Source: Saccharothrix longispora
GTDB lineage: Bacteria > Actinomycetota > Actinomycetes > Mycobacteriales > Pseudonocardiaceae
Assembly: GCF_030852425.1 (NCBI RefSeq)
Contig: NZ_NSDM01000003.1
Coordinates: 434,001-498,000 of the forward strand
Reading direction: 5' to 3'
Length of the DNA: 64,000 nucleotides
The notes below the pieces were generated by a model. The model saw nothing but the letters and a program-made list of their open reading frames with translations, ran no database searches and was not told the DNA's origin. Positions 45,383 through 58,194 of this stretch are shown here, one piece after another. Positions within the stretch are counted from its first letter, which is position 1, and every line of letters begins with the position of its first letter. The position numbers were made by a program, and so were the translations under genes.

Positions 45383-46345
45383 ATGCCTACGCCAGTCGTC
45401 GGACAGGAATCGCGGGTGCGCGATCCCCGACGGGACGACGCGGGGGACGACCCCTTCGCGGACGCTTTGCGAGCGGCGATCCGGGCGAAAGGGCTCAGCC
45501 TGGAACGCCTCCAGCACAAGCTGCGGGGTCGCGGCGTGGCGGTCAGCATCGCCGCGCTGAGCTACTGGCAGTCGGGCCGGAGACGGCCGGAGCGACCGGA
45601 CTCGCTCACCGCGGTCGGCCACCTGGAGGAGATCCTGGAGGTCGGCGAGGGCGGCCTGAGCACCCTGCTCGGCCCGCCGCGCCCGCGCGGCAAGGCGCGA
45701 CCGCGGACCCGGGTCGCGGGTCCCGAGGGCTGGGTCGGCGAGCACGACCACGCCTCGATCGCCGAACTGCTCGCCGACGTCGACACGAGCACCGACCAGG
45801 ACCTGACGCGGCTCAGCCTGCGCGACCAGGTGGAGCTCGCGATGGACGGCAGCACCCGCCGGGTGCGGTCGCGCCAGGTGCTGCGCGCCGAGCGCGCGGG
45901 CGTCGACCGGGTGCTGCTCGGCTACGACACCCGGCTGCCCGGCGACCCCCTGCCGGTGATCGGCACGCTGAGGTCGTGCCGGCTGGGACGGGTGTCCGCG
46001 GACCCCCGCAACGGCCTGATGGTCGCCGAACTGCTGTTCGACCGCCCGCTGCGCCGGGGTGAGCGGACCGCCGTGGAGTACGAGCTGATCCACGTCGCCC
46101 CGCACCACCCGACCTACGACAACACCCACTCCCGCCGGTTCCGCCTGCCGGTGCGCGAGTACGTCCTGGAGGTCCGCTACGACTCGCGCTGCCGACCCGC
46201 GCGCTGTGAACAGTTCACCACCGGTTTGACCGGTGGAGAACCAACCGACGTACGCGAAACCCCGGTGGACACCTGGGGCTACGCGTACGCGGTCGCGCTG
46301 GACTTCGGTCCCGGCGTCGTCGGCCTGCGCTGGGAATGGGCCTGA
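45383..46345 (+). CDS. HTH regulator-like protein with large C-terminal domain
   Basis: The 320-residue protein has an N-terminal Xre-like helix-turn-helix (FADALRAAIRAKGLSLERLQ, then VAVSIAALSYWQSGRRRPER). A Pro/Arg linker and a C-terminal beta-rich domain of about 200 residues (IAELLADVDTSTDQDLTRLS, then VEYELIHVAPHHPTYDNTHSRRF) follow. The latter has no function I recognise; the arrangement recurs in Pseudonocardiales to my knowledge. ATG 45383 has GGAG five bases upstream. Its DNA target could be the long upstream region. Confidence 0.7.
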   Translation: MPTPVVGQESRVRDPRRDDAGDDPFADALRAAIRAKGLSLERLQHKLRGRGVAVSIAALSYWQSGRRRPERPDSLTAVGHLEEILEVGEGGLSTLLGPPRPRGKARPRTRVAGPEGWVGEHDHASIAELLADVDTSTDQDLTRLSLRDQVELAMDGSTRRVRSRQVLRAERAGVDRVLLGYDTRLPGDPLPVIGTLRSCRLGRVSADPRNGLMVAELLFDRPLRRGERTAVEYELIHVAPHHPTYDNTHSRRFRLPVREYVLEVRYDSRCRPARCEQFTTGLTGGEPTDVRETPVDTWGYAYAVALDFGPGVVGLRWEWA

Positions 46346-57010: not shown

Positions 57011-57132
57011 CGGGAGTCCAACCTCCAGGCCGCGAGAGTCCGACGCCCAGGAGCCGGGAGTTGTTTACTCGCGAGTGAAGAACTCAGAGGTCCTGGGCGT
57101 CGGACTCTCGCGACCCGAGGGTTGGACTCTCG
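57011..57132. repeat. Inverted intergenic element of 22-nt units (3 forward, 3 reverse)
   Basis: Forward units start at 57011, 57033 and 57055; reverse units at 57132, 57110 and 57088, all exactly 22 bases apart. Cores are CGGGAGTCCAACC, CGAGAGTCCGACGCCCAGG and CGGGAGTTG. The arms meet at the perfect palindrome ACTCGCGAGT (57067-57076). The middle pair differ at one of 22 positions. The unit at 6781 is the same subfamily. The right arm encodes the last residues of the intein-containing remnant. Confidence 0.92.
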
Positions 57133-58168
57133 CCGGGGACGCCGGGGACGCCGGTGGGGTCGCGGGCGGGGCAGGGCAGTTGTGGCTGACCAGGCCGTTG
57201 GCCACGAAGTCGCCGGTGCCGGTGGTGATGTCGTACAGCGTCCGCGTCACGCCCAGCGACTCCACCGCCACCACGGCCAGCTGCGACGTCACGGGCACCG
57301 CCATGCCCTCCACGGCGTTGCCGCGCCTGATGGCCGGTTCGACCAGGTGCAGGAACCGCAGCCGCCCGGCCAGCCCTCCGACGACGCGCAGCCCGCGCAC
57401 CTCGACCGCGTGCGGCACCGCCAGCCGGGTCAGCGCGAGCGCGGCCGCCTCGAACACGGCGCTGTCCGAACTGGACACCACCAGCTCGCCGCCGGTCGAG
57501 CTGCCCCGCGAGTCGAACAGCCCGGCCAGGAAGCCCTTCGACCACCCGTCGCCGGGCGCGGTGGGCCACTCGACCAGGTCGCGGTCGCGCGGCACGTCGC
57601 CCGCCGAGAACTCGCGGGCCCGCGCCAGCACGTCCGGGTCGCCGGGCAGGCCGCCGCGCACCACTCCCCACAGGTAGCCGTCGCGGTAGTCCCGCACGTG
57701 CGCGGGCGGCGCGGCGAACCGGCCCGTGCCGACCAGGCGGGCGCCCTTCACCAGGAAGGGGCGCTCGTCGGCGTCGTCGCTCCGACCGGGCGTGACGTGC
57801 CTCCAGCCCTCGTCGGTGAGGAACCGGTGGTCCCCGCCGGCCACGACCTGCGTGCCGTCGCCCAGCGTCACCCGGTACGCGGGCCTGCTGGTCTTCCAGT
57901 GCGCGCGCACCCGCGTGACGACGAACCGGCCGTCCCGCGTGCCGAACACCTCCTCGCCCGCGGACAGCTCGCCGATCGGCGCGGTGCGCCCGTCGGCCAG
58001 CAGCACGGGCGTGTCGCCCGCCAGGCAGTGGGCGCGGGCGGGTCCGGCGCCCACCTCGTGGGACGCGACGTCGTCGGGGTGGGGGGTTCGTACGCTGCGG
58101 ACCAGTCCCGGCGACCCCGGTGGAGCCTGCTGCCGGTCCGCCCCGTCCTCCTGCCCGTCACATCGCAT
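57065..58168 (-). pseudogene. Rv2578c-type gene remnant: intein with lost radical SAM domain
   Basis: The 367-residue frame begins MRCDGQEDGAD and PGLVRSVRTPHPDDVASHEV, the start of intein-containing Rv2578c-family radical SAM proteins. Residues 48-330 are an intein: Cys48 in CLAGDTPVLLADGRTAPIGE, block B GGDHRF (111-116), a LAGLIDADG-like FLAGLFDSRG (213-222), and the C-end YDITTGTGDFVANGLVSHN (312-330) followed by Cys331. After Cys331 come only about 36 low-complexity residues (PAPPATPPASPASPA, then sequence from the 22-nt repeat). The radical SAM CxxxCxxC core is absent, and N-extein sequence before the intein is also shortened. The host gene is decayed while splicing residues persist. Confidence 0.85.
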
Positions 58169-58174
58169 AACCCC

Positions 58175-58194
58175 ATTCGAACACGCGTTCGAAT
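58175..58194. promoter_or_regulatory. LexA-type SOS box
   Basis: ATTCGAACACGCGTTCGAAT is palindromic except for its 4-base centre and contains TCGAAC-N4-GTTCGA, the actinobacterial LexA site. It lies seven bases above the ATG of the Rv2578c-type remnant and 20 bases before the pnuC start. Rv2578c is reported, from memory, as a LexA-controlled gene in M. tuberculosis, which fits. Confidence 0.85.

Follow-up and report, generated by a model that had tools for sequence, protein, structure and literature searches.

The window analysed here is a stretch of 64,000 nucleotides from the genome of Saccharothrix longispora. Near its end, on the minus strand, lies a gene at positions 57065 to 58168 that encodes 367 amino acids plus stop, as identified from the open reading frame, its translation and a match to the intein part of family NF038136. 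The gene begins with 47 amino acids of residual N-extein from an Rv2578c protein (58028 to 58168, minus strand), recognised by comparison within the genus. This is followed by an intein of 283 amino acids (residues 48 to 330; 57179 to 58027, minus strand), which was delimited from the sequence, NF038136, the same-genus comparison and the Hint fold of an AlphaFold model. Where a radical SAM domain would be expected, there is only the Cys+1 codon, a 36-residue tail that is Pro/Ala and repeat-derived, and the stop (57065 to 57178, minus strand). The tail reads into a palindromic intergenic repeat (57011 to 57132, no strand assigned). At the other end of the gene, a LexA-type SOS box, TCGAAC-N4-GTTCGA, matches at 12 of 12 positions and ends 8 nt before the ATG (58177 to 58192, minus strand).

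The splicing residues of the intein can be placed precisely, all of them on the minus strand. The Cys1 codon (residue 48) is at 58025 to 58027, by translation and same-genus comparison; the block B His codon (residue 114, intein His67) is at 57827 to 57829, by motif; and the terminal His-Asn codons (residues 329 and 330) are at 57179 to 57184, by translation and motif. The window copy thus reads Cys48, GGDHRFLT in block B (with His114), VSHN at the C-terminus and then Cys331. Both this copy and its counterpart in G099, another genome of the species assembled as a single contig, have all the class 1 intein residues, namely Cys1, the block B His, His-Asn and Cys+1. A LAGLIDADG-derived domain occupies intein residues 117 to 249 (57281 to 57679, minus strand); it was defined from motifs and the codon model, with boundaries of our own choosing. 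It contains two LAGLIDADG-like blocks found by motif, GYLWGVVRGGL (57647 to 57679) and KGFLAGLFDSRG (57503 to 57538), both on the minus strand.

The window protein matches NF038136, which describes intein-containing Rv2578c radical SAM proteins, at 1.2e-62, with the best stretch covering profile positions 72 to 337 of 574. The score of 212.6 bits is under the 700-bit cut-off, and the protein, having no radical SAM domain, falls outside the family proper. In the AlphaFold model, the ten-residue mean pLDDT is 70 to 94 across residues 51 to 330, which adopt a Hint fold, and confidence is below 50 for the exteins. Judged by its sequence, the window protein is a class 1-type intein from an Rv2578c-family radical SAM gene. 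This agrees with the first-pass annotation, made from the letters alone, which had proposed an intein gene carrying the first part of an Rv2578c-type protein and a 283-residue intein with Cys48, the block B His, His-Asn and Cys+1; the strand is minus.

The usual insertion point of this intein, by comparison within the genus, is directly before the third cysteine of the CxxxCxxC iron-sulphur motif, and this cysteine serves as Cys+1. From the upstream box to Cys1 there are 149 nt in the window copy. Of the 20 further genomes of the genus with any host match, 19 have 221 nt at this place and G018 has 203 nt. The N-extein of the window copy is short by 24 codons, which include two of the three cysteines of the motif. 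The C-extein, 37 residues with Cys331 included, does not visibly resemble the radical SAM C-extein of genome G017, which spans 280 codons. The shortening of the N-extein just before the insertion site and the replacement of the radical SAM domain by a Pro/Ala and repeat-derived tail had both been noticed at first sight, and both stand after these comparisons.

An error of assembly or sequencing, or an intact host elsewhere, has to be considered for any gene of this kind, and the window assembly consists of 54 contigs. G099, however, matches 2001 bases of the locus at 96%, and its copy, of 363 residues, has the identical N-extein shortening and splicing residues, with a different tail. The presence of the same locus in a single contig leads to the rejection of an assembly error. 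A radical SAM domain in frame downstream, which by the first-pass annotation would have spoken against an orphan, is absent from G099. The second intact copy that it proposed to look for is likewise missing: the intein profile found no second good match of this kind in the window genome, and a search of the whole of that genome with NF038135 (Rv2578c) at E 1e-5 gave no match. Since neither genome has an Rv2578c match and conserved neighbours continue the contig, error or a hidden host is improbable in the extreme. The other intein matches in the window genome are weak; they fall in a parE-like gene that carries an insertion and in two further frames. The parE-like gene (G000:C54:244358-247813) exceeds its usual length in the genus by approximately 1.4 kb and shows a weak match to the intein N-terminus, and is therefore probably intein-bearing.

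The surroundings of the gene are conserved. In the 26 genomes examined, the order is YibE, NadR, PnuC, the intein or host gene, (FAD oxidase), SnoaL and TetR; this order is kept, with gaps in some genomes. Because the neighbours keep their order, the host appears to have been deleted in place, and its loss at this syntenic locus is close to certain. Here and below, the gene names rpoC, dnaA, dnaN, gnd, gyrA, PnuC, NadR, YibE, SnoaL, TetR and FAD oxidase were read from the sequence, while for rpoB and gyrB alone a family-model match stands behind the name.

To place this case among its relatives, 390 genomes of the family were surveyed with a profile built from ten inteins and with the Rv2578c model NF038135. 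The intein was found in 247 of the 390 genomes (E 1e-20), and a host match in 346 (320 over the cut-off). When the two lists are compared, 242 of the 247 genomes with an intein also have a host match. The five without are the window genome, G099, G004, G011 and G013, where NF038135 has no match at E 1e-20. All five are in one genus; two belong to the window species and three to another clade. An orphan intein surviving its host, as originally proposed, is thus borne out by synteny, by the second genome of the species and by this family-wide host search. Within the genus, the intein is present in 25 of 25 genomes. Of these, 18 have a host that scores over the cut-off, G002 has a shortened one, G021 a split one, and five have none. 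In G002 (locus L044), the host is shortened, probably by deletion, to profile positions 1 to 171 of 317; in G021 (locus L055), the radical SAM C-extein is split between two frames. The intein is complete in both.

The three-species clade (G004, G011 and G013, hereafter the trio) has an intein gene of 294 amino acids. It begins at the former host start, 8 nt after the box, so that 13 residues precede Cys1, and the protein ends 3 residues past the intein region with no added domain. The gene is placed between YibE and SnoaL-TetR. The block B His67 is changed to Asn, the block F Asp is absent, and the terminal His-Asn is replaced by Cys-Ala; the residues of a class 1 intein are therefore incomplete, and the protein should no longer splice in the usual way. 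The first-pass annotation held that homologues conserving this short architecture as a different protein family would speak against an orphan. Three species do conserve a short architecture in part; but being orphan inteins at the same locus, their genes strengthen the orphan reading. Most genomes of the genus have pnuC and nadR beside the locus. In stretches of 14 to 16 kb (L057, L058, L059), these genes were not found in the trio, G018 and G023, and in G006 and G015 they were found only in part.

The palindromic repeat at 57011 to 57132 separates the convergent orphan-intein and FAD oxidase genes. It has 57 matches in the window genome, 72 in G099 and 59 in G002; these are counts of matches and not of places, since a single place often contributes one match per strand and scoring was limited to 40 candidates per genome. 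G004 and G013 have no match to it. The shortened host gene of G002 likewise ends against repeat-like sequence.

The 420 nt upstream of the intein were compared in 29 loci (25 from the genus and 4 from other genera). In every one the top-scoring site matches the box at 11 or 12 of 12 positions, although in G038 the best-scoring box is not the one beside the start codon. In all five orphans a LexA-type box has been kept at 8 nt from the start codon, with 11 of 12 positions matching in the trio. The window holds one exact match to the box; at one mismatch, two sites are found against 0.15 expected by chance. The second of these, with one mismatch, is at 46026 to 46041. The LexA motif reported for Streptomyces venezuelae is tCGAAC-N4-GNNCGa, and the regulon table includes a radical SAM gene (PMC9380542). 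Members of the host family are annotated as SplB-like in some strains, with weak support (PMC12924846). By sequence match, then, the window gene has at its promoter the putative LexA-type box of a LexA regulon member, though in the orphans this box may be an inherited remnant only.

An active LAGLIDADG homing endonuclease has an acidic residue ending both of its LAGLIDADG blocks. At the positions that we take to be those of the catalytic acids, the first block lacks an acid in 25 of 25 genus genomes, orphan or not, and the second has Arg in 25 of 25; an acid at either block is thus found in 0 of 25. Outside the genus, the second block was readable in 29 of 49 frames, of which 22 have Glu and 1 has Asp at the acid position, and one (G053) of four further family genomes has Asp there. 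The missing acid in the first block had been remarked upon as a possible sign of dead homing in this gene. The observation is right as stated but is not specific to the orphan, and since intact-host genomes share it, the first block most likely died before the host was lost. It might still be argued that the intein survives as a selfish element with active homing, given that the LAGLIDADG domain is present and is modelled with fair to high confidence. This is scarcely credible, because both catalytic acids are missing throughout the genus, and because the loss of the host gene leaves no empty Rv2578c site in the same genome.

It is less straightforward to decide between one loss of the host and two. 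When the window species and the trio were constrained to form one clade, the AU test did not reject this for rpoB plus rpoC (p 0.081) or for the intein (p 0.244), but rejected it for five gyrase-region genes (p 0.003) and for all seven genes (p 0.0022). Among the five gyrase-region genes, one is missing in 3 genomes. In one tree, one of two frames chosen (c19) is probably antisense to rpoB, as it overlaps c46; it was kept, the tree being built on nucleotides. The gyrase-region tree places the window species beside G021 (support 68). In the seven-gene tree, G002 plus ten intact-host genomes form the sister group of the window species (support 93), and G018, where the host is intact, is sister to the trio (support 100). 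The multi-gene rejections and the seven-gene tree are therefore read as two losses, bearing in mind that the earlier tests had not revealed them. On these phylogenies, separate losses in the window species and the trio are favoured, while rpoBC or the intein alone do not decide. Ala-His precedes Cys1 in both lineages, which could hint at a shared history.

Selection on the intein was estimated with a codon model in a script of our own (MG94 type, HKY, F3x4, with a separate omega per branch class), fitted on 16 of the 25 genus genomes, both on the intein tree and on a multi-gene tree. Figures are from the multi-gene tree unless stated, with domain splits at intein residues 116/117 and 249/250. 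When Hint was constrained to 1, the fit came out 0.2 log units higher than the unconstrained one; the optimiser is thus exact only to about this level, and small likelihood differences are inexact. Background omega is 0.142. In the trio, omega is 0.18 on the stem and 0.072 on the tips, the latter differing from 1 with LR 66.8 (p 3e-16); the tips of G002 and G021 have 0.272. Between the inteins of G004 and G013 there are 29 synonymous and 9 nonsynonymous differences, distributed 5:2:31 over the codon positions. The corresponding ratio is 0.12 for the intein, 0.50 for SnoaL, 0.46 for YibE and 0.06 for TetR. The substitution pattern shows that the splice-dead intein of the trio is under strong purifying selection, and it is highly probable that the 294-residue gene encodes a selected protein. 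The openness of the frame was rejected as proof of selection, since in a neutral, substitution-only simulation of the trio gene the frame stayed open in 58 to 76% of runs.

In the window species, the pattern differs along the protein. Omega on the stem is 0.173, near the background value, from which the loss looks recent. On the tips, it is 0.308 for the whole intein (p 0.037 against 1 and p 0.15 against background, on few changes). When the domains are separated, the Hint domain has an omega of 1.76, which is above background (p 0.0019) and not different from 1, and the LAGLIDADG domain has 0.082 (p 0.0016 against 1, p 0.34 against background); the intein-tree fit gives 1.44 and 0.084, respectively. 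Between the two strains there are 15 base differences in the intein, 6 synonymous and 9 nonsynonymous. Nonsynonymous to synonymous counts are 9:2 in the N-extein, 7:1 in the Hint domain and 2:5 in the LAGLIDADG domain; by Fisher's test the last differs from the first two pooled (p 0.014) and from Hint alone (p 0.041). The TetR neighbour has 1 synonymous and 3 nonsynonymous differences between the same strains (ratio 1.13), which shows the noise of such counts. The substitutions suggest that the splicing domain drifts in the window species, and the LAGLIDADG domain looks constrained, on few changes.

These data bear on two further explanations of the window copy. The first is that splicing joins the two short exteins into a new functional peptide of 84 residues, for which all the splicing residues, including Cys+1, have been kept. 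However, the changes in the N-extein look neutral, the C-terminal tail differs between strains in indels and in its end, the exteins are modelled with a confidence below 50, and the trio kept just three residues after the intein region; such a peptide is very hard to believe in. The second is decay without function, a serious rival, in which the window copy is a relic soon after host loss and its intact residues have simply not yet mutated. This would account for the excess of nonsynonymous changes in the N-extein and Hint domain, for tails that differ by indels, for a whole-intein Nei-Gojobori omega of 0.59 between the strains and for a stem omega so near background, and it has a precedent in the Arth_1007 intein, described as a pseudogene (PMC3196547). 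The constraint on the LAGLIDADG domain speaks against it. So does the fact that the intein is free of nonsense and frameshift mutations in both strains, though by the simulation open frames mean little at this GC. We would put a functionless relic at rather less than even odds.

The best explanation overall is a recently orphaned intein in the window species and a selected new use of the intein in the trio lineage, to which we assign a probability of roughly 0.6. Chance retention, recent decay and a new use had at first been left side by side; recent orphaning is favoured for the gene in the window, and the omega values point to a selected new use in another clade. Under this explanation, the host would have been deleted in place, and what is left of it is the LexA-type box, the start codon and 47 residues of the N-extein. 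The window protein would be made upon DNA damage, when LexA is inactivated, and its intein would be able to splice or cleave itself out, the relevant product being the free intein. The spliced exteins are unlikely to matter because both drift, and homing is out because both catalytic acids are missing. Selection may instead keep the LAGLIDADG-derived domain for a structural role or for binding DNA without cutting it. In the window species, the splicing domain would now be in the process of release, and the trio would represent a later state; the window copy is perhaps on the path toward a selected gene of the trio type. A host-independent function of the window copy has about an even chance. 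It is tempting to join these elements into one history, in which the host was lost twice, the trio intein was domesticated as a splice-dead and cut-dead protein under the old DNA-damage promoter and purifying selection, and the window species is an intermediate with its splicing domain released and its LAGLIDADG-derived domain held. This composite account is tentative, and we rate it a little below even.

Among the titles listed on orphan, free-standing or domesticated inteins, Rv2578c, LexA and integrases with inteins, which lie mostly outside subscription journals, the close precedents are Arth_1007 and the yeast HO/WHO genes. No report of purifying selection on a splice-dead bacterial intein was found among these titles. 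The Arth_1007 (formerly DnaB) intein of Arthrobacter sp. FB24 is reported to have 66 extein residues and no recognisable host, and to be inactive; to its authors' knowledge, no decayed intein pseudogene retained by a genome had been described before it, and they expected drift to erase an inactive intein in a non-essential gene (PMC3196547). Both cases are inteins left without a host, and the trio has the same change of the block B His to Asn. Arth_1007, however, belongs to class 3 and lies in the remnant of a prophage, whereas here the host and the locus are known. If the marks of such a pseudogene are the lack of functional host exteins and the loss of splicing residues, the window copy shows the first and the trio also the second. 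Unlike the inactive Arth_1007, the window copy keeps all its splicing residues, and the splice-dead form in the trio is under purifying selection.

Yeast HO is a stand-alone intein-like gene described as domesticated, and HO and WHO are intein-like genes without exteins and without motif G (PMC7282813). The window copy keeps motif G and short exteins. The trio has lost motif G and kept 13 and 3 flanking residues, and it has no zinc finger. According to the same source, HO and WHO have a zinc finger and cut DNA, whereas the trio protein is without an added domain and without catalytic acids. Another difference from HO and WHO is that the orphan gene described here sits at the old host's own promoter.

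Other systems offer partial likenesses. The NF038136 family has the same intein, the same insertion point before the third cluster Cys and the same locus, and differs in possessing the radical SAM host that is absent here. WhiA is a bacterial regulator with a homing-endonuclease-type domain, and could serve as a model for a non-cutting DNA-binding role; it carries an HTH domain, and the likeness is one of description. WhiA is not known to have a Hint domain. By analogy, WhiA suggests that a LAGLIDADG-type domain can serve a bacterial regulator. The PhoVMA intein (PDB 7qst) has a degenerated endonuclease, but it is an archaeal VMA intein studied as part of its host protein, and the part of that report consulted describes no host loss (PMC8966425).

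Inteins are thought to last only while the host is needed. The 25 genomes of this one genus include 18 hosts over the cut-off, 2 damaged hosts with a complete intein, 2 recent orphans and 3 selected splice-dead forms. What is new compared with the precedents is the known host and locus, the intermediate stages within one genus and the purifying selection on a splice-dead bacterial intein. Whether a selfish protein insert can acquire a role of its own thereby becomes a question that can be tested one stage at a time among relatives of soil actinomycetes. If the explanation is true, the trio gene would be a bacterial counterpart of yeast HO, but one without cutting.

Short architectures outside the genus were considered as further orphans and rejected, as a pattern search recovers a C[FYL]A[RK] extein directly after the intein in 60 of 62 loci; in L121, this extein is present though missed by the pattern. 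The open frames of G140 and G158 are short (380 and 434 amino acids), but both genomes also have host matches, and these frames are therefore read as broken frames or contigs. A locus from a Pseudonocardia MAG (L091:3001-5648) was ruled out as the same kind of orphan, because the gene is interrupted by a serine recombinase frame. Its Rv2578c gene is cut just past the intein, and the serine-recombinase-like frame follows directly, as if a mobile element had integrated into the host gene. The attachment site of phage Samy has been reported to be an Rv2578c-family gene (PMC12924846).
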